Shown here: positions 222 to 10,787 of the stretch, piece by piece
How positions within the stretch are numbered: the first letter of the stretch is position 1
How the letters are laid out: every line of letters begins with the position of its first letter
From: Candidatus Methanophagales archaeon
GTDB lineage: Archaea; Halobacteriota; Syntropharchaeia; Alkanophagales; Methanospirareceae
Assembly: GCA_030602585.1 (NCBI GenBank)
Contig: JAUVZJ010000017.1
Location: 1 to 38,439 of the forward strand
DNA: 38,439 bases
Direction of reading: 5' to 3'
Translations under genes and position numbers: made by a program
Notes under the pieces: model-generated
The model's input: the letters and a program-made list of their open reading frames with translations, nothing else
What the model was told of the DNA's origin: nothing
Databases searched by the model: none

Positions 222-1430
222 TCACCTCCTTTTGTTTTTTATCCACCTTTTTAGTTTTACAATATAGACTACAACAAGTAATGCCGAAATTGCGGTTATC
301 GCTTCAAATCCGGGAATCCTTCCTGCTGGACTTGGTGTTGATGTTGTAGTTGGCGTAGGCGTTGTAACTGGTGCTCCCCCATTACCGCCATCACCACTAG
401 GCGTTGCAGTTGTTGCCGGAGTTATTTCCTCTTCAACCGTTATCACATAGATGTTGCCCTCTGAAGTGTATGCAATCTTCTTTCCATCTGGATTCCATTG
501 TGGATTGAGATCACCTCCTTTACCTGTGGTCAGTTGCACCTTCTCACTATTATCACTATTCATCACCCAGATATCATCCATGGTATCAGCCCAATCGATG
601 GATGCGGAGAATGCAATCTTTTTCCCATCAGGACTCCATGCTGGATATGCAAAAAAAGATACATTAGTTGTTAGCTGAACTTTGTTACTACCATCACTAT
701 CCATTACCAAAATATCCCGATTGCCAGAACGAACTAAAATAAAGGCAATCCGTGTTCCATCCGGGCTCCAAGTTTGAAACAATTCATCGCCTTCATTTGT
801 GGTTAATTGCGTTTTATTACTCCCATCGCAGTCCATTACCCAGATGTCCCAAGTTCCTGAACGAGTGGATACAAAAGCAAGCTTGTTTCCTGAGGGATCC
901 CATGCCGGACCAAAATCTTCTGCAAAACTGGTAGTGAGTTGAACCTTATTGCTTCCATCGCTATCCATCACCCAGATATCCTTATTTCCGGTCCGATTGG
1001 AGGTAAAAACAATTTTTGTTCCATCAGGGCTCCACGAAGAAAAAAGGTCCACTGCAGGACTGGTGGTTAGTGGAACTTGATTGCTTCCATCGCTGTCCAT
1101 CACCCAAACATCAAAATTACCAGAACGATTCCAAGAAAAAGCAATCCTTGTTCCATCTGGATTCCATTTTGGATTATCGGGTACTCCTTTGTTGGTAAGT
1201 TGAAGCTTGTTATTCCCATCGCTATCCATCACCCAAACATCAAAATTACCAGAACGGTATGAAATAAAAGCAATTTTTTCTCCATCTGGACTCCAGGCTG
1301 AAAAAAAATTCGCAGTCGAATCATTTGTCAACTTTACCGCTTTTCCACCTGTCATAGTCGAAGTCATTCCAACCAGAGTACATACCAATATAGCCAAAGC
1401 AATAGCCAGTACAAACATTTTTTGTGCCAC
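222..1430 (-). CDS. Secreted seven-bladed PD40/TolB-type beta-propeller with PGF-like C-terminal anchor
   Basis: A 402-aa exported protein. It starts at GTG 1428-1430, chosen because GGAGGTGATG lies about 9 nt upstream; the in-frame ATG four codons later is too far from that site. Residues 1-28 form a signal peptide. Seven repeats of about 42 residues follow, each with W(S/N)PDGxKIAF ... R(S/T)GNxD(I/V)WVMDSDGSNKxQLT, the PD40 (TolB/WD40-like) propeller blade. The recurrent DSDGSN loops resemble calcium-binding loops. A Thr/Pro/Ser-rich linker (about 335-368) leads to PGFE, a hydrophobic helix and a KRWIKNKRR tail, which is the layout of archaeosortase-processed PGF-CTERM proteins. It is therefore probably a surface-anchored binding protein; ligand unknown. 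Repeats 1-5 are very alike at DNA level, implying recent blade duplication. Confidence 0.85.
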   Translation of the reverse strand: MAQKMFVLAIALAILVCTLVGMTSTMTGGKAVKLTNDSTANFFSAWSPDGEKIAFISYRSGNFDVWVMDSDGNNKLQLTNKGVPDNPKWNPDGTRIAFSWNRSGNFDVWVMDSDGSNQVPLTTSPAVDLFSSWSPDGTKIVFTSNRTGNKDIWVMDSDGSNKVQLTTSFAEDFGPAWDPSGNKLAFVSTRSGTWDIWVMDCDGSNKTQLTTNEGDELFQTWSPDGTRIAFILVRSGNRDILVMDSDGSNKVQLTTNVSFFAYPAWSPDGKKIAFSASIDWADTMDDIWVMNSDNSEKVQLTTGKGGDLNPQWNPDGKKIAYTSEGNIYVITVEEEITPATTATPSGDGGNGGAPVTTPTPTTTSTPSPAGRIPGFEAITAISALLVVVYIVKLKRWIKNKRR

Positions 1431-1512: not shown

Positions 1513-2004
1513 CTATGTCCCTTTCTGCACTCTGCAAGAAGCATGAGCCACACCAGAAGCAGCAAAACAAAAACAGGAAACATCTACATATGCATAATGT
1601 TCATCGTTTTCGTGACCTGACTTTATGTCAAACCAATCATCGCCGCTAGCGTAGCAAACAAAATGTCCGAAGGTGTGTTCTTTCTCCTCGCTGCAATATC
1701 CAGAACCACAGATTTTGGTTCTAACTTTGCATTCGTAAATACAATTACCACACTCAGGTCCCCCGCAACAACCTGCACTATAATGTACTTTTATCTTGTT
1801 TGTGGATGCATATAAAGTTGCTTCTACCTTGGCATGAGCACAATGATTAGGACTATCGTCTGAATCTTCACAATAATCACTCCAATTACTCCAATCACCC
1901 CAACAGAAAAAATAACTCTTCTCCCTCTCCTTATCCTGCCTCGCTCTCCACCTCTCCCACCTCTTTTTGTTTATCTTCTGTCTTCTGTCGTCTATTACTT
2001 TCAT
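1513..2004 (-). CDS. Cysteine-rich protein (14 Cys), candidate substrate of the adjacent radical SAM enzymes
   Basis: A 163-aa protein of no family I recognise. Residues 1-30 are highly charged and helical-looking (DDRRQKINKKRWERWRARQD) and carry no Cys. From about 33 on come 14 cysteines, including CC-GGPEC-GNC-IYEC and CFC groups, plus many aromatic, His, Gly and Asp residues. There is no signal peptide. The start is preceded by GGGTGGTGAG at good spacing, and that site overlaps the stop of the upstream radical SAM gene, so the two are translationally coupled. The leader-like N-terminus, Cys-rich remainder and tight linkage to two maturase-like enzymes suggest a modified peptide/protein precursor. 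It could instead be an ordinary disulfide- or metal-binding protein. Confidence 0.75.
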   Translation of the reverse strand: MKVIDDRRQKINKKRWERWRARQDKEREKSYFFCWGDWSNWSDYCEDSDDSPNHCAHAKVEATLYASTNKIKVHYSAGCCGGPECGNCIYECKVRTKICGSGYCSEEKEHTFGHFVCYASGDDWFDIKSGHENDEHYAYVDVSCFCFAASGVAHASCRVQKGT

Positions 2005-2010
2005 CTTTTC

Positions 2011-2826
2011 TCACCACCCCAGAAAGTTACAGCACGTATCAAATGGATTCATAATATCTTCAGGTCTCCTCAAAACTTCTTTTATCGGTGTCGGATACGT
2101 CCCTATGACTTCCTGATGCCTCGGACAGTCCCAATAATTCAGGTCTGGAGTAACTGCTAATCCGCAAATTCCCGCAACGCACCCCGTTTCTACACATGTA
2201 ACAAGCGTTTTAACATATTTGCTCACATATTCCTTCGCTTTGAGCCATTCCGTAAATCTGACAGTTTTGCTTGAATTTTTGAACGGCTGATATAATCCGA
2301 AATTCAGTATCGTGCATTTGTATTTCTTGCAGAGTTCAATGATATGGTCAATGCAGTGGAAGTTCCACTTGCATAACATAAACCCTATTGAATGTTTAAT
2401 TCCATGTTCTTGCAGGCACTCCAATGCCTTAATAGCCTTGTCATAAGAGCTTTTACCACGAATTCTGTCATGAGTTTCCCGGTCACCGTCAATGCTTACC
2501 TGTATTCCGTCTTTTTTGTCAAAAACACCCATTTCAACATATTTCGGTATGAAAATCCCATTCGTGCTCAATATGATGTGGTCTTGATATTCCCTGACTA
2601 AATCGCAGAGTTGCTCGAACTTGGAATATAACAAAGGCTCGCCGCCGCTCAGGATTATACTATACTCTTTAAGTGGGAATTCTGTGTTCAAGAAATCCTC
2701 ACAGAGATTTTTTATTATTTCTAAAGGCATTTCGGTGGATGCGGTAGTGTAGTTCTGGCAATAACAGTGCTTGCATCGAAGCTGACAATTACTGGTAACA
2801 TGCAATGCTAAGAAGATTTCAACCAT
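2011..2826 (-). CDS. Radical SAM enzyme with SPASM-like C-terminal cluster domain
   Basis: A 271-aa protein from ATG 2826; a GTG at 2856 is possible, but GAGGCGA lies 8 nt before the ATG. The radical SAM motif CQLRCKHC (C14, C18, C21) and the SAM-binding SGGEPLL are plain. The C-terminal third has Cys residues in a SPASM/twitch arrangement (CVETGCVAGICGLAVTPD ... WDCPRHQ ... TCC), and ends FLGW. SPASM enzymes commonly modify peptides or proteins (anSME-, PqqE-, sactionine- and mycofactocin-type maturases). It overlaps the upstream radical SAM gene by 19 nt and is followed within 7 nt by the Cys-rich gene, so all three form one transcription unit. Substrate unknown; modification of the Cys-rich protein is inference. 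Confidence 0.85.
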   Translation of the reverse strand: MVEIFLALHVTSNCQLRCKHCYCQNYTTASTEMPLEIIKNLCEDFLNTEFPLKEYSIILSGGEPLLYSKFEQLCDLVREYQDHIILSTNGIFIPKYVEMGVFDKKDGIQVSIDGDRETHDRIRGKSSYDKAIKALECLQEHGIKHSIGFMLCKWNFHCIDHIIELCKKYKCTILNFGLYQPFKNSSKTVRFTEWLKAKEYVSKYVKTLVTCVETGCVAGICGLAVTPDLNYWDCPRHQEVIGTYPTPIKEVLRRPEDIMNPFDTCCNFLGW

Positions 2827-3827
2827 GATGTCGTCGCCTCTTTCCTCTTTTCCCACTCATCGATCTTTACCAAGTTCAAATAGCCACGTTCATCTTCCTC
2901 AATTTGGTATTTAATTTGTTTGAATTGTGTAGTATAATAGACACTTCGATCAACTCGCTTAAAATACTGCAATGCAATTTCATCGAGTTTGTAACGTATT
3001 TTTTCGCATTCCTCTCTTTCATGATCGGGGTAAAAAGGGCAGTATATTTTTATAGCAAAATCAGGTTTTATCCTGTAGAGAAACTCACACATGTCGTTAA
3101 ACGTTGAAGTATCTACGTTAGAAAAAGGAATTAAAGAAACGGCAGTTAGACCTTCAAATTTATCACTAACCAATTTAAGCGCATTTATTGTAGCTTGATT
3201 ACTATGACCGGTATATTCTTTATGCCATTCATCATCTAAGTTGTAAAAAGATATATTAATCGTATCAAGCCCCACCGCATTTGCTTCTTCAACAAAATTT
3301 GCTTCGATAAGAGAACCATTCGTTGCGAGCCCGCATGAATAATTAGTTCTCTTTTTTACAGATTCAATCAGTTTGGGCACTTCTTCCTTTTGAAGTAGTG
3401 GCTCACCCCCACTTATAGTAAACATGGTTGTTGCATCTCCATCTAAAGTGAGCAAAAGCTCTGTTAGCTTATCAATGGATATTCCTAGTGGAGGTACACC
3501 CTTAAGACCGCAACAACATTCCGTTGGGCACCATTTGCACTTCCAATTGCACCCCCACAGTTTAATGCCAATCCTATGCTTCTTATACGATTCACCACTT
3601 ACAATTTCATACTCGTAGATTACAGGATACATTATCACTTCCCCGTCTTCTTTCAGAACTATATCGGTTATATCAGTTAAATTGTAGGAGCTGCCAGCGA
3701 CACCAAAAGTAGCACTTGCTTTGATAAATCTGCGCCTGCTTACCTTAAGATCATTATTAGGTTTTTCACAGTCATTTTCACGTGTTCCTTCGCTTTCCCC
3801 TTCACCATTACCAAATCTTCCATTCAT
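2808..3827 (-). CDS. Radical SAM enzyme (PFL-activase-like) with an N-terminal Tat-like segment
   Basis: A 339-aa protein. The radical SAM signature CNWKCKWC (C93, C97, C100) is followed by an unusual CCC (104-106), then TISGGEPLL (SAM-binding GGE near 140) and ATNGSLI. The core resembles pyruvate-formate-lyase-activating-type radical SAM proteins without an obvious SPASM domain. Upstream of the core, residues 30-46 read SRRRFIKASATFGVAGS, the shape of a twin-arginine export signal. An in-frame ATG at residue 66 (MYPVIYEYE) would give a 274-aa enzyme without that segment. The longer start has GAGGGG before it. This is the first gene of the three-gene unit. Exported radical SAM enzymes would be very unusual, so the N-terminal segment may be a relic or have another role. 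Confidence 0.8.
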   Translation of the reverse strand: MNGRFGNGEGESEGTRENDCEKPNNDLKVSRRRFIKASATFGVAGSSYNLTDITDIVLKEDGEVIMYPVIYEYEIVSGESYKKHRIGIKLWGCNWKCKWCPTECCCGLKGVPPLGISIDKLTELLLTLDGDATTMFTISGGEPLLQKEEVPKLIESVKKRTNYSCGLATNGSLIEANFVEEANAVGLDTINISFYNLDDEWHKEYTGHSNQATINALKLVSDKFEGLTAVSLIPFSNVDTSTFNDMCEFLYRIKPDFAIKIYCPFYPDHEREECEKIRYKLDEIALQYFKRVDRSVYYTTQFKQIKYQIEEDERGYLNLVKIDEWEKRKEATTSWLKSS

Positions 3828-3860: not shown

Positions 3861-3900
3861 TATTTATAGGTAACAACAAAAATATATAACTATATAAAAG
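3861..3900 (-). promoter_or_regulatory. Promoter region of the radical SAM operon
   Basis: Minus-strand TATA-like sequences lie at 3881-3900 (TTTATATAG, TTATATATT) and 3861-3870 (CTATAAATA), 35-70 nt before the ATG at 3827. A GAGGGG ribosome site sits just before that ATG. Either box could serve the three-gene unit. Confidence 0.5.
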
Positions 3901-4832: not shown

Positions 4833-5261
4833 TTACCTGCCCAACCCTGATTCTCCCAGAACAAACAAGTCTATCTCATCAGCTAAATCAGAAAAACGAT
4901 CCTTAAACTCAAATATCTTGTCCCTCTTTGCTTCCTCTATCTCCGGTTTGCCAAGCTTTTCTTCAAGTTCCACCTCTTTATAAAAGATGTCATAAATCAA
5001 CATGAAAATACTGGGTCTTTTGCTTCTAAACCTTTTAAAGTCTTCCATAACAGCCTTGCCATTCAAATAGTTATCACGCATTTCATCAAATTCTTTAAAA
5101 ATCACGTCACTGTCCTTATAAAAATCGCTTAACGTTTTCAAAAAGATTTCCGATATTCTTCTATCTTCTGTCATGGGCAATATTGAATAATATATTTGGC
5201 TATTTAAAAGTTTTTCGATTTTTAATTTTTCTTCTTCTCCTCCTTTGTTCAGGCTTATCAT
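4833..5261 (-). CDS. Hypothetical soluble protein, paralogue of the 6134-6805 gene product
   Basis: 142 aa, starting at ATG 5261 after GGGTGAGGAT. I do not recognise a domain. It aligns along residues about 37-135 with the first gene of the same operon: both have FY..SD(V/I)IFK.FD, (D/N)YL.GK...D, IF.LI.DI, then KRDKIFEF..R(Y/F)SDL.DE. Highly charged, helical-looking, no signal peptide or membrane segment. Last gene of the five-gene operon, 4 nt after the preceding stop. The duplicate pair enclosing three small membrane proteins suggests soluble partners of one membrane complex. Confidence 0.7.
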   Translation of the reverse strand: MISLNKGGEEEKLKIEKLLNSQIYYSILPMTEDRRISEIFLKTLSDFYKDSDVIFKEFDEMRDNYLNGKAVMEDFKRFRSKRPSIFMLIYDIFYKEVELEEKLGKPEIEEAKRDKIFEFKDRFSDLADEIDLFVLGESGLGR

Positions 5262-6133: not shown

Positions 6134-6805
6134 TTATCTCCCTTCCCCATCTGCCTTTTTCTCTAACTCCTTTGCCATATTTAAAACTTCATTCGCATCA
6201 TTAATTATCCTGTTTGCCGTCTTTTTGACATCGGTAATAACCTCCTTCTTAATGCTCTTATCTCTGTTTTCAGAAAGGCAACCTTTTATCCTTAGTTGTA
6301 TTTCTCTTACAAGCTCGTATATGTTATCAATACTATATTTCATGTGCAGTATTTTTTTATTTGAGACTGAAAGCAACTTAATCTCCATTACTACTGTGTT
6401 TTGGTGTTCATCAAATTCACAATCAGACAGAAGATCTATCCAACAATTAAACCACCCGAAATATTCTCTTAATATTAGCGATACCATCTCATCTTTTAAA
6501 TCCGAGTATCTTCGTGCAAACTCAAATATTTTATCCCTTTTATTTCCTTCTATTTTAACCTTATCGAACCACTCTTTAATCCCCTCTTCTGCAAGGAGGA
6601 TATCCCGTATCAAATAGAAAATATGGCTTTTATTATTTAATAACCCCTTTAAATCTTCCTGAATATCTTTACCTCGTAAATAATCGCTGTATATGTCATC
6701 AAAACATTTGAAAATAATGTCCGACAAATCATAAAATTCATTTACTGCTTCCACAAACCCTTCTGGCACTTCTTCCCCTTTACCTTCTTTTTCTTCCTTT
6801 GCCAT
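6134..6805 (-). CDS. Hypothetical soluble protein heading the small-protein operon
   Basis: 223 aa from ATG 6805; an in-frame GTG at 6814 is possible. Its N-terminal half is paralogous to the 142-aa last gene of the operon (shared KRDKIFEF, SDL.DE, (D/N)YL.GK motifs). The C-terminal half is unique: NKKILHMKYSIDNIYELV, then a helical, lysine-rich tail (ANRIINDANEVLNMAKELEKK) with coiled-coil character. No membrane segment. A TATA box 22 nt upstream suggests near-leaderless transcription of the operon from here, separate from the helicase gene upstream. Confidence 0.65.
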   Translation of the reverse strand: MAKEEKEGKGEEVPEGFVEAVNEFYDLSDIIFKCFDDIYSDYLRGKDIQEDLKGLLNNKSHIFYLIRDILLAEEGIKEWFDKVKIEGNKRDKIFEFARRYSDLKDEMVSLILREYFGWFNCWIDLLSDCEFDEHQNTVVMEIKLLSVSNKKILHMKYSIDNIYELVREIQLRIKGCLSENRDKSIKKEVITDVKKTANRIINDANEVLNMAKELEKKADGEGR

Positions 6806-6827
6806 AGGTATCACTATACGATTTGCA

Positions 6828-6908: not shown

Positions 6909-9900
6909 TTATTGGTTCAACACATCTCCAAATATCCGTCGAAGTCGCTCATCTAATTTTTTCATATCTTCTGGCTCTATACTTCTTAATCTTAGATTCG
7001 CTTGCATATACAACTTTTCTTTTACCTTCCTCGTCTTTCTATACCATTCTTCGTGCATCAAACCCCAATATTCCACATATATTTCCCCTCGTGGTAAGAA
7101 CCAATCGCAACGCATTAATCTATTAACAGGAACCTGTTTTTCAACTTGATGTTTTATTCCGTTCCTATGAAACCAATTATCAATCAGCATCTCATGAGTA
7201 GACCTTAAACTGTGTTCATCCTCTGCTGTATAGCTTGAAGGGTTCCTTTCCTCATCAACTCTCAATTGAAATAAGCTATAACATTCCTCACTGCAAATCG
7301 CCGACCTTTCTTCAGGAACATCTTCACCACACATCATGCAGCAGTTCTGCTCGTGCACATCGCCGTATTCCTTGATATGCCCATAAAGCGCTCCGTATAT
7401 CGGCACTCTCTCGAAAAGTTCTCTGCTCCCTATAATTATAAACTTCTCTTTTGCCCTTGAAACTGCAACGTTCAAAAGATTCTTACTCGTCGGACCTTCC
7501 AGCGGCTTTCCAAAACCGCTGCTTTGGCTCCTCCGGTAGTTAGCAGTGGCGAAGATGATAATCCTCTTCTCCTGACCTTGAAACGTATGTACCGTCCCGC
7601 ACTCAATATCAGGAATTTCATCTTCTACTATATCTATTTGTGCTCGATACGGGGATATTATTGCCATTTCTTCATAAATACTTTCACCATATTCACGCCT
7701 AAACTTTTCAATTATCTTTTTGACAAAGCCAATCTCGACCTCAGAAGACACAGAACGACCTTCATAATCAGTCCAGAATCTTCTTGGAAAACATACCATC
7801 GGATAACAGTTGCTTATGAGGTCATCTGGACATTCCCTTAATCTTTCAGTAATTTCTATTTCCGCTGGTGTATTCAATAATCCATCGTAGAAGGATGAGC
7901 TAACAAAATCCGCTATCTTCCTTTTCATTCTGTATTGAGATGTTAGCATAACTGCGTGATTATCCCCATAGTTGGATTTGTAGAACCTTTCAAAAATGCT
8001 CAACCGCAATCTCGGATTTTGCTCGACAAAGTCACTGATTTCTGGTGGTCTGTCCACTAAAATAGGCGGAAGTTGTTTGGGGTCACCCAGCAATATGAAC
8101 TTATTGCCTTTTAAAAAAGGGAGGACAGCACCCGGCAAGTCAATAGCGCCCGCTTCATCCATTATGACAAGGTCAAACTTAATGCTCGCAAACAGCTTGT
8201 CGTATGCTCTTAAATTCGTCGTTGCGATAATCTGTTTTTCGTTGAGAATAGCCAACCTTGCTTCTTCCATTTTTCTCTTCATTTCCTCCTGCATTTCCTG
8301 TTCCGCCGCTTTGATTTCCGCAATTTTTTCCCTGACCGAATTCATAAGTTTTTCAATCAAGCCGCTCAAATCAATGCGCTTCTGCTCCATTCCTTTTAAA
8401 TCCACCTCTTTCTGGTTCTTATCGCTCTGTTTATTGCGTAATTCGTTGTATAACTCACGCAGTACTGATTTTTCTCTTCTTAACGCATCGCTGTCATATT
8501 CCAATTTGCCGTGAGCAAGCGATTCAATATCCCTTTTTAACTCTTTCAGTTTCTTTTCACCAGATTCAATATTTCCTGACAAACTCGCGTGGTTTTTTTC
8601 AATAGTGCATAGTTCTTCTTTTTTACGTTCCAATTCATTTTCCTTTTCACGTATTTCGCGTTCTCGTGCATTTAAATCATTTTGAAGTTTTGTTATCTCC
8701 TCTCTTTCGTTTTTCTGTTCTTCCAAATTCTCCTGGAGTATTATCTCCAGTTCGATGCGCTGTCTTCCTTCTAATTGCAACTCTGTTGTCTCCTGTTTAT
8801 ATTGCTCATATAACAGTTCTGAGCGCCCACGTATGAAATCACTCAAGCCATTCCTGATTCTATTATTTTTCCAGTTTAAATCATCGTATAACGCACGCAA
8901 TTCAGGATTTTCTCTTATTAACGCATCTTTGTCATATTCTAATTCACCACGAGCAAGTAAATCCTTGTCTCTTTTTAAATCCCCCAGTTTCTGTTCCCTT
9001 CTTTCAATAGTTCCTGACAAACTCGTGTAATTTTCTTCGACTGCAATTAACTCTTCCATTTTACGTCTCAATTCCTCTTCTTTTTCTCTTAGTGTGCGTT
9101 CTCGCTCATTTAAGTCACTTAGAAGTCTTAGTATTTTCTCCAGTTCGCTACTAGTTCTTCTTGCTAATTGCAATTCATTTATCTTTTGTTCATACTGCTC
9201 GTATAACGGATTTCGCCGCTTAAATACGTATTTTTTCCAAAGAGCTACGATTTTATTCCTTCTGGCGTATTCCAGATAAGAGCTTACAATGTGGATTATA
9301 TTGGCTATATCAGGTTCATTATTCTCCAAATTAGCCAACTGTTCACGAATGCCGGCTATATCACTGTTTAATCTGGGAACTTCATTTTCTATTCCCTCTA
9401 TCGCTCTGTTAATCTCCTCCTTTTCCTGCTGGAGTTCATCAAAATTCTCTTTGTAGTTCCGCAATTCGTTATCAATTCGGTTAATCTCCTCCATGAACTT
9501 AGCGGTGAGCAATGAGTGCTCTCTTTCCGCTATCAAGTTTTTAATACGTGATATTTCGGCGCTTAGCGCTTCAATTTCTTGTTTTGGTCCTTCGGCGAAA
9601 TCCAGATAATACTCTATTATGCGAATAATATTGGCGGTATCCTTCTCTTTTATATCCCATTCCGCCAACTGCCTATTAATGTCCGATTTGACATCTTCTA
9701 ACCTGCTAACATGGATTTTAAGTTCTTCCATCTCTTCGTTAAATTCTCTCTTTTTTATCGGAAGCTCTATGAGTTTCTCTCGGTATTCCTGCAACTGTCC
9801 GTTAATTTGGTCTATCTCCTCTTCGAACTGAGCAGTGAGCAAAGAGCGTTCATTATCAGTTATCTGATCTGTAATATAGGTTATTTCAGCGTTTAATGCG

Positions 9901-10787
9901 TTAATTTCGCTTTTGATATCTTCTTTGTCTTTCTCAACCGTTTCCGCCTCTTTGTTCTTTGACTTGCGTTCTTTTTCAATCTTCTCCTTTTCCCGAAATA
10001 ACTGTTTTATTTTCTCCTTAAACCTACCTAACTCTCTTTCTATCTCTTTTCGCTTCTTTTTAAGCTGTTCATCAAAAAGCGCATCTTTGTATTTGTCCGT
10101 AAGCGTGGAGTAACCAAACCTGACGATGATTTTTTTACATCTCCTGTTATCGAACAATTTCATCACCACGTTATCCACCGCTCTGTTCGTGTAACTGCAC
10201 ACCAGTATCTTCGTGTCCTTGTGCAATCTGATATAATTGCGCACAATTTCCGGGACAATTGTCGTCTTTCCGGTACCGGGCGGACCCCAGATTAGATATA
10301 CATCCTGAACGCCAACTGCATATTCAATAGCGCGCTTTTGCTCTTCATTTAACCCTTCTTCTTCAAATATGCATTCGCTTCGGGCACCTCCTGAGATATC
10401 TCCGTCTCCAAATAATAACTGCCTTCTTTCACTGAAATTTTCCCTTAACTGCTTTAAACCCTGCATTTCTCGTTCTAAGATGTTACTCGTATCTACATTG
10501 ATTGCTCCGTTTTCAATATGCCTTTGCCCTGCATCTAAATCTTCTATCCGTAATTTCACTTGATTTCTTGTTAACTGGACGATATTGCATTCGTATTCTC
10601 CGCTGCTGTACTTAAAGTTATAATCGCCTCTAATTTGCTCCAATTTCCGGTATCTGCTCGGTGTTATCGCAAAAACAAATTCTTCTGAAGATTTTCGTCG
10701 GCCATTAGCGATAGGAATTTCTGTCGTAAATGGATGCCTTAACAGCAGATTTATTAATTCGATATATGCATTAAGTTCCTCGCTCAT
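6909..10787 (-). CDS. Large SF1 (UPF1/DNA2-like) helicase with long coiled-coil insertion, Cys cluster and C-terminal nuclease-like domain
   Basis: 1292 aa. Residues 1-140 form a distinct N-terminal domain. SF1 motifs follow in order: GLNEEQKRAI, GPPGTGKTT (168-176), SYTNRAVDNV, then after the insertion DEAG (877-880), GDPKQLPP (901-908), QYRM (951), VHTFQGQE (1066-1073) and NVAVSRAKEK (about 1106-1115). Between motifs Ia and II, residues about 240-850 are almost continuous heptad-rich, Glu/Lys-rich coiled coil, far longer than in ordinary UPF1-like helicases and recalling SMC/Rad50. A C-x2-C-x11-C-x3-C cluster lies at 1150-1169. The end reads CDWFLPRG-EIYVEYWG ... KTRKVKEK, matching the D-(E)xx..K pattern of PD-(D/E)XK nucleases (D1228, E1239, K about 1254). 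Likely a DNA or RNA processing/defence ATPase; substrate unknown. Confidence 0.85.
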   Translation of the reverse strand: MSEELNAYIELINLLLRHPFTTEIPIANGRRKSSEEFVFAITPSRYRKLEQIRGDYNFKYSSGEYECNIVQLTRNQVKLRIEDLDAGQRHIENGAINVDTSNILEREMQGLKQLRENFSERRQLLFGDGDISGGARSECIFEEEGLNEEQKRAIEYAVGVQDVYLIWGPPGTGKTTIVPEIVRNYIRLHKDTKILVCSYTNRAVDNVVMKLFDNRRCKKIIVRFGYSTLTDKYKDALFDEQLKKKRKEIERELGRFKEKIKQLFREKEKIEKERKSKNKEAETVEKDKEDIKSEINALNAEITYITDQITDNERSLLTAQFEEEIDQINGQLQEYREKLIELPIKKREFNEEMEELKIHVSRLEDVKSDINRQLAEWDIKEKDTANIIRIIEYYLDFAEGPKQEIEALSAEISRIKNLIAEREHSLLTAKFMEEINRIDNELRNYKENFDELQQEKEEINRAIEGIENEVPRLNSDIAGIREQLANLENNEPDIANIIHIVSSYLEYARRNKIVALWKKYVFKRRNPLYEQYEQKINELQLARRTSSELEKILRLLSDLNERERTLREKEEELRRKMEELIAVEENYTSLSGTIERREQKLGDLKRDKDLLARGELEYDKDALIRENPELRALYDDLNWKNNRIRNGLSDFIRGRSELLYEQYKQETTELQLEGRQRIELEIILQENLEEQKNEREEITKLQNDLNAREREIREKENELERKKEELCTIEKNHASLSGNIESGEKKLKELKRDIESLAHGKLEYDSDALRREKSVLRELYNELRNKQSDKNQKEVDLKGMEQKRIDLSGLIEKLMNSVREKIAEIKAAEQEMQEEMKRKMEEARLAILNEKQIIATTNLRAYDKLFASIKFDLVIMDEAGAIDLPGAVLPFLKGNKFILLGDPKQLPPILVDRPPEISDFVEQNPRLRLSIFERFYKSNYGDNHAVMLTSQYRMKRKIADFVSSSFYDGLLNTPAEIEITERLRECPDDLISNCYPMVCFPRRFWTDYEGRSVSSEVEIGFVKKIIEKFRREYGESIYEEMAIISPYRAQIDIVEDEIPDIECGTVHTFQGQEKRIIIFATANYRRSQSSGFGKPLEGPTSKNLLNVAVSRAKEKFIIIGSRELFERVPIYGALYGHIKEYGDVHEQNCCMMCGEDVPEERSAICSEECYSLFQLRVDEERNPSSYTAEDEHSLRSTHEMLIDNWFHRNGIKHQVEKQVPVNRLMRCDWFLPRGEIYVEYWGLMHEEWYRKTRKVKEKLYMQANLRLRSIEPEDMKKLDERLRRIFGDVLNQ

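Follow-up and report, generated by a model that had tools for sequence, protein, structure and literature searches.

A short archaeal radical SAM enzyme encoded beside proteins with a shared tryptophan-rich head: a candidate triceptide-like maturation system

Using sequence comparison and predicted structures, we analyzed a 38,439-nucleotide stretch of a Candidatus Methanophagales archaeon (GenBank assembly GCA_030602585.1, contig JAUVZJ010000017.1, positions 1 to 38,439 of the forward strand; hereafter the window), in which the gene of a short, peptide-maturase-like radical S-adenosylmethionine (SAM) enzyme, rS2 (2011..2826, minus strand), adjoins that of a 163-residue protein (1513..2004, minus strand). 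We find that this protein is modular, with a conserved leader, a Trp-rich head and a beta-sandwich body, and that relatives of rS2 in other archaea adjoin proteins sharing the Trp-rich front end on otherwise unrelated bodies, which suggests that the enzyme cross-links this front end. The reading as a whole, namely that rS2 matures its neighboring protein by setting Trp-Asp/Asn cyclophanes on the head in a triceptide-like manner, is drawn from sequence comparison, and we consider the case for and against it to be evenly balanced.

Results

A common leader and a recurrent head

No Pfam, NCBIfam or PHROGs family matches the 163-residue protein, whose organization emerged from its relatives. Several early matches spanned only its first 43-66 residues, and reading those loci exposed a common leader with the consensus VIxxxRQEINKKRWERWRAxQxxKREKxYFYC, which stands ahead of different proteins, including ones of 130 residues (L034) and 229 residues (L033), a 67-residue remnant (L032) and a further carrier at L055. 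The leaders are 43-65% identical in pairs, and the bodies give no BLAST match to one another outside their own body families. In the window the basic leader covers residues 1-33 (1906..2004, minus strand), the head WGDWSNWSDYCED residues 35-47 (1864..1902, minus strand) and the Cys-rich body residues 55-163 (1516..1842, minus strand); the N-terminus is free of Cys, as had been claimed, with the first of the 14 at residue 34. AlphaFold2, run on four sequences for the precursor, predicts a low-confidence helix (residues 2-25), a low-confidence stretch (22-47) in which the head would be disordered, and a beta-sandwich (55-160) whose pLDDT (predicted local distance difference test) is mostly 73-91 but drops at the two ends and around residues 80-90.

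The first-pass annotation, made by a model from the DNA alone, had likened this protein to the leader-bearing precursors of radical SAM maturases, and it fared well here: the protein looks like an rS2 precursor, with a shared leader on unrelated cores and, in six loci, a leader gene that begins 3-15 bases after that of the enzyme (rS2-A in these type A loci). In fact rS2-A always adjoins the leader gene and not the propeller gene described below. A conserved leader and variable core beside a modifying enzyme is the arrangement of ribosomally synthesized and post-translationally modified peptides (RiPPs), and is seen in type A only; no gene for a leader-removing protease was identified. Homologues of the Cys-rich body were found with rS2 on the same contig in 5/5 loci (window, L030, L031, L016 and L054), in line with the co-occurrence that the annotation had proposed to check. 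It had also proposed that a match to a known secreted disulfide or metal-binding fold would speak against a maturation system; Foldseek against the PDB gave no confident match, and the three matches at E<=0.001, all of one MD-1 fold with template modelling (TM) scores by query of 0.29-0.33, were rejected as generic beta-sandwiches. As a separate observation, the core at L034:9219-9377 is, following a GG, hydrophobic and rich in both Cys and Gly; by eye it resembles archaeal bacteriocins such as halocin C8, with no family match.

Directly after the leader the heads read WGDWSNWSDYCED in the window, WHDWSDYCED in L031, WNNWGNWGD in L034 and WNDWSDVCED in L054. Leaderless heads are found as well, on additional bodies and in the vicinity of a paralogous enzyme (rS2-B). 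L030 encodes the same Cys-rich body (75% identical) without the leader; there the protein has the N-terminus MGWGEWGDWSDYCED and its gene directly follows that of a P-loop nucleoside triphosphatase (NTPase), with rS2-B two genes beyond the head protein, after the propeller. Altogether the head is present on at least seven kinds of body. Asp or Asn stands at +2 for 39/64 Trp in 16 heads, against a mean of 20.4 when the other residues are permuted within heads whose boundaries were set by eye (P ~5e-5), and with one head per body family W-x-[DN] accounts for 18/28 against a shuffle mean of 8.4. Asp, Asn or Glu is found at +2 or +3 for 57/64, and the triceptide-type repeat of at least two aromatic-x(1,2)-[DNE] units in 14/16 heads. 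The 16 proteins with a head have between 0 and 14 Cys, and because this number varies while the Trp-x-Asp/Asn head recurs, the likely modified site is the head and not the Cys-rich body. The earlier proposal that the Cys-rich protein is the substrate thus survives in part: the leader-bearing protein probably is the substrate, but its Cys portion is not favored as the modified site, and the Cys-rich body as sole substrate is rejected as a general rule.

Heads track rS2 beside a conserved NTPase

Type B loci have no leader, and carry the NTPase gene in place of leader and rS1, the second radical SAM enzyme of the window. The NTPase occurs in 14 of the 392 genomes of the phylum, and we read 19 of its regions (L113-L131) besides L030, L060 and L133; L133 was left out of the scoring, and the downstream gene was not cleanly scorable in L123, L130 and L131. 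Where rS2 is in the locus, the gene directly 3' of the NTPase encodes a head with at least one Trp in 5/5 cases (at least three in L030, L060, L124 and L129; minimal in L122, MGWAEYADV), and where rS2 is absent any Trp in the first 25 residues is found in 0/13 (L114-L121, L125a, L125b, L126a, L127 and L128). L113 keeps a head with no rS2 found and an NTPase truncated beside a transposase-like open reading frame (ORF), and has apparently lost the enzyme. Fisher's test of head against rS2 gives p = 5e-4 with L113 counted against the association and 1e-4 without it, for loci that are not independent: the rS2 label requires three changes on the NTPase tree, at least two of them forced by supported branches. 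Moreover, the body family of L122, L124 and L055 has a different N-terminus where rS2 is absent (L125b, L126a-c and L131).

The NTPase has no name in Pfam, NCBIfam or PADLOC beyond a twin-arginine translocation (Tat) signal, and its best PDB profile match is SRP54 (E 0.019). We also observed that L114-L121 and L125-L128 form a methanogen operon family, in which an NTPase ending like GWVLPQYLIREGFLEV is followed by a protein starting MGGGG or MGSPP, with Ig-like repeats by our own reading and a body without a Pfam or NCBIfam name, and then in several loci by a propeller-like protein.

rS2 resembles peptide maturases and lacks a full SPASM domain

Both radical SAM enzymes of the first-pass annotation are real, in that CNWKCKWC (rS1) and CQLRCKHC (rS2) are present and Pfam Radical_SAM (PF04055) scores 57.2 and 72.4 bits, respectively, against a cut-off of 29.5. 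rS2, the central enzyme of the candidate system, is 271 residues long from an ATG at 2826, with cluster Cys at C14, C18 and C21. These three, along with C42, C166, C216, C234, C265 and C266, are invariant across 14 rS2 sequences, and C211 is nearly so. The annotation had called the C-terminal Cys SPASM-type; they are indeed conserved, but C211, C216, C234, C265 and C266 are too few for SPASM, no Pfam SPASM match appeared at E<=1 and the seven-Cys pattern is absent, so that the set would fit one auxiliary-cluster half instead. The Twitch pattern, with one auxiliary cluster, is CX9-15GX4C plus further Cys, and a Twitch-like C216-X12-G-X4-C234 is found in type B rS2, the Gly being replaced in type A.

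The AlphaFold2 model of rS2 (pLDDT 80.6, residues 255-271 poor) has as nearest PDB folds the peptide or protein maturases SkfB, SuiB and anSMEcpe together with the antibiotic enzyme BlsE, and by sequence the top PDB matches are 5wgg, which we take to be CteB, and SkfB. All NCBIfam matches of rS2 lie far under their cut-offs. The best-scoring model, TIGR04340, gives 79 bits (96 for L030 rS2-B and 94 for the L132 enzyme) against a cut-off of 400, the viperin model scores rS2 at 52 bits and rS1 at 41 with a cut-off of 180, and no sactipeptide or ranthipeptide maturase model reaches its cut-off for rS2.

Distribution

Among 58 genomes of the class, rS2 (E<=1e-30) occurs in 9, rS1 (E<=1e-25) in 3 and the 163-residue protein (E<=0.01) in 7, and rS2 (E<=1e-35) occurs in 16 of the 392. 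A leader profile matched 13/392 genomes at E<=0.01, 7 of them at E<=1e-12, and it is these seven stronger ones that were examined. Scanning GTDB contigs added GoM-Arc1 (L054), Methanolobus psychrotolerans YSF-03 (L060) and Archaeoglobus UBA230 (L062), the last with a broken rS2-B and no head gene recognized; rS1 as a tblastn query gave no match in genome contigs. L060, L122, L124 and L129 share the gene order rS2-B, NTPase, head protein. Two Archaeoglobales elements, L132 and L135, carry a longer, distant rS2-like enzyme (~36% identity to L060 rS2-B; disrupted in L135), followed by a protein starting MGGWGDWSGDWSGDWSDWSDW... in L132 and MTWSDWSGDWSGDW... in L135. These elements (G266:C109 and G150:C20, respectively) appear virus- or plasmid-like and their proteins have at least eight tandem W-x(1,2)-D units; for the 743-residue protein of L132, PHROGs gives a weak match (E 8e-4) to a major head protein model.

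A viral origin of the window system was considered and rejected: in IMG/VR the rS2 profile had only four distant matches, an L132-type query had eight at 27-33% identity with no Trp-repeat head recognized in them, and there were two weak phage matches and no plasmid match. A DNA pattern for tandem Trp-x-Asp occurred in at least 120 viral stretches, with an rS2-like ORF (E<=1e-3) in 0 of the 120 listed. The pattern ATG-GGN-TGG was found in 15/392 genomes, where the true heads by translation were the known ones of G103, G232 and G030 and the other matches were short ORFs, ORF ends or without an MGW ORF; within these stretches of ~3 kb an rS2-like ORF was found near the match in G103 only.

Several loci hold further variants. 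A third kind of radical SAM protein, nearest to the HxsC model (103 bits, under its cut-off), directly follows rS2-B at L054:9252-10166 and L016:935-1183, and the L054 operon has four radical SAM genes, with rS1 and rS2-B frameshifted. At L055:2532-3194, L122:3769-4461 and L031:7353-8339 the propeller is replaced by a membrane-anchored protein with repeats, seen by eye, around 'RWSVD...LTPEN..L.G..I.GWT', and at L037:2-2697 propeller and rS2-B are duplicated in tandem, the first rS2-B copy being truncated.

The window operon, rS1 and export

The three genes described in the first-pass annotation are all open on the minus strand at its coordinates, with the exception of the rS2 start. Relatives of rS2 start at the equivalent of ATG 2826 and not GTG 2856, and therefore the overlap with rS1 (2808..3827, minus strand), rightly noted before, is ~19 bases. 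Likewise GGTGGTGA, the ribosome site ahead of the Cys-rich protein gene, does include the rS2 stop codon. The unit nevertheless extends beyond a three-gene cassette: 82 bases past the precursor gene begins that of a secreted, 402-residue TolB-like beta-propeller with a PGF-CTERM anchor (222..1430, minus strand; PD40 208 bits, PGF-CTERM 23.2 bits), which is the probable fourth gene of the operon and takes the same post-precursor position in L054. A TATA-like element upstream of rS1 (3890..3899, minus strand; read on the plus strand, CTATATAAAA) was spotted by eye. All three are constrained genes, with dN/dS, obtained by simple division, of ~0.21 for rS1, 0.16 and 0.09 for rS2 and 0.34 for the Cys-rich protein. 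By part, the window compared with L034 gives dN 0.24 and dS 1.68 for the leader and dN 0.09 and dS 0.53 for rS2, and compared with L030 gives dN 0.18 and dS 0.32 for the body. Elsewhere in the window, short ORFs at 4833-5261 (EIFLKTLSDFYKDSDVIFKEFDE...) and 6134-6814 (EAVNEFYDLSDIIFKCFDD...) resemble paralogues by eye and adjoin a 1292-residue helicase-like gene (6909-10787).

rS1 is a 339-residue enzyme whose CX3CX2C motif lies at C93, C97 and C100, with a Tat-like N-terminus and no auxiliary-cluster domain recognized. It had been thought that two dissimilar radical SAM enzymes set this system apart. This is not supported: of the eight leader-type loci, three have an intact rS1 (window, L033 and L055), two a damaged one (L031 and L054) and three none that was found (L034, L016 and L032), and the leaderless loci do not include it; in L034 only a short C-terminal tail is left by eye, with rS2 and the leader protein intact. 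Being damaged or not found in five of the eight, rS1 is accessory and dispensable. Its Tat-like N-terminus recurs among rS1 relatives, and against a cut-off of 22.7 bits the Tat signal scores 13.2 in the window rS1, 21.5 in L033 rS1 and 24.3 in the L060 NTPase. TatC is encoded in 29/58 genomes including G000, and none was found in G046, the host of L033 rS1. Tat export was dropped as a firm claim, the two rS1 signals being under the cut-off and G046 having no TatC found, and is kept here as a guess. In Methanolobus psychrotolerans the genes immediately preceding rS2-B are four of the Tat pathway, two TatA-like and two TatC (L060:3567-5865).

Discussion

Our comparisons suggest that the substrate of rS2 is probably the neighboring leader-head-body protein and, somewhat less securely, that the head is its modification site; if so, a cyclophane would be the probable product. 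The leader of type A precursors would recruit rS2-A, and rS2 would then work on the Trp-rich head, a segment predicted to be disordered that links the leader to the folded body. There it would abstract a hydrogen from the Asp/Asn C-beta, a step known from radical SAM cyclophane chemistry, and join this carbon to the ring of the Trp at i-2, one unit after another, most likely yielding tandem three-residue cyclophanes as in triceptides. The finished protein would have a rigid cross-linked tip on a folded body and would probably move to the cell surface, near the PGF-CTERM-anchored propeller encoded next door. In type B loci the NTPase gene would stand in for leader and rS1. What the sequences show is the common leader on unrelated cores, the adjacency of the genes, the recurrence of the head and its tracking of rS2; the substrate, the bond, export and what rS1 and the NTPase do are inferred.

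A number of observations weigh against this scheme. Heads are weak in 2/8 leader proteins (no W-x(1,2)-[DNE] unit in L033, one in L055), and many units are W-x-x-D (13 Trp with Asp at +3), outside a strict i/i+2 rule. rS2 lacks a full SPASM domain, and matches the cyclophane-maturase families (YhhB, GrrM and FxsB models) only below their cut-offs, YhhB for example at 67 against 445 bits. Type B has no leader, which is unusual for RiPPs, and intact rS2-B was seen without a head gene in L037, L035 and L036 (the latter two at contig ends).

Could Cys be modified instead, through thioethers of the sactionine or ranthipeptide type or Cys-Asp/Glu links as in the quinohemoprotein amine dehydrogenase gamma subunit? 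The leader proteins are rich in Cys (14 in the window, 9-14 in L031, L033, L034, L054 and L055), eight Cys are invariant in four homologues of the window body, each leader ends in a Y-[FC]-[FYH]-[CW]-like motif, the conserved Y-F-Y-C there could be the site in type A, and the top PDB neighbor of rS2, SkfB, is a sactipeptide maturase. However, Cys falls to 3-5 in L060, L113 and L129 and to 0 in L132 with the Trp head kept, members of the same body family have a different N-terminus in the absence of rS2, and the sactipeptide and ranthipeptide models all score under cut-off, which together make Cys chemistry unlikely. We also doubt that the head is a recognition or chaperone-binding tag, with rS2 making a small molecule or modifying some other protein, for example the propeller, and with shared export or regulation keeping the operons together. 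In favor of a tag, both L030 and L037 have rS2-B overlapping the propeller gene at its 3' end, no head gene was seen in the 10 kb of L037 that were read, some units are W-x-x-D, and profile and fold comparisons of rS2 also pick up MoaA and viperin, enzymes that act on nucleotides. Yet the neighbor of rS2-A is always the leader gene and never the propeller, heads lie beside rS2-like enzymes with no propeller recognized in the region read (L132 and L135), and downstream of the NTPase heads are missing where rS2 is absent.

Even with the head as the site the chemistry is not fixed, as radical SAM enzymes with auxiliary clusters catalyze many reactions and the spacing varies between W-x-D and W-x-x-D. 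Oxidation, hydroxylation, epimerization or a Trp-Trp or Trp-Cys linkage on the head nonetheless seems quite improbable to us given the enrichment of Asp/Asn at +2 (39/64, P ~5e-5), these being known partners in Trp three-residue cyclophanes (PMC11002830).

More tentatively, and with greater doubt than for the cyclophane on the head itself, archaea and at least one virus-like element may have full-size folded proteins whose N-terminal tip is fitted with tandem Trp-Asp/Asn cyclophanes by short radical SAM enzymes of a distinct family, the tip being a module that moves between unrelated bodies and between leader and leaderless operon types. Because the tip module occurs in the leaderless type, the enzyme could on this broader proposal work leader-free, and the rigid tip of the product could let surface or virion proteins bind or insert. 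If true, triceptide-like cross-linking would reach beyond small bacterial peptides to tip whole folded proteins in methane-oxidizing and methane-producing archaea, the leader-free and leader-bearing versions would reveal how dependence on a leader arises or disappears within an enzyme family, and an unnamed NTPase-protein-propeller operon family of methanogens would receive a function. Since one relative belongs to a named strain, Methanolobus psychrotolerans YSF-03, tests in cells may be feasible in addition to co-expression. A literature search found no description of this system or of archaeal triceptides, weak evidence given that subscription journals were mostly uncovered.

Among known systems, the radical SAM/SPASM model of the ACGX system (TIGR04340) is the one that scores best for rS2 in NCBIfam, but rS2 is far under its 400-bit cut-off and no ACGX-like substrate was seen. 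SuiB (streptide) and SkfB (sactipeptide) rank with the solved structures most similar in fold to the rS2 model (TM by query 0.69-0.75). Both have two auxiliary clusters and an N-terminal peptide-binding domain, whereas rS2, at 16-19% identity, has 271 residues and begins at the radical SAM core. QhpD is a radical SAM enzyme that modifies a small folded leader-bearing protein, the quinohemoprotein amine dehydrogenase gamma subunit; unlike that system, the one described here has no family match to it, its bodies can replace one another although unrelated, and the element that stays constant is not Cys. The precursors of known triceptides are small peptides. As in triceptide systems (XncB, OscB/GrrM, MscB/FxsB and YhhB), a radical SAM enzyme here adjoins a precursor with repeated aromatic-x-Asn/Asp motifs. 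Characterized triceptide enzymes link Trp to Asn/Asp at i+2, as reported for OscB, and contain SPASM (PMC11002830). In contrast, the units described here are also W-x-x-D, rS2 has no full SPASM and is under every cyclophane-maturase cut-off, and the carrier is a folded protein of 130-740 residues, with an optional leader and archaeal hosts.

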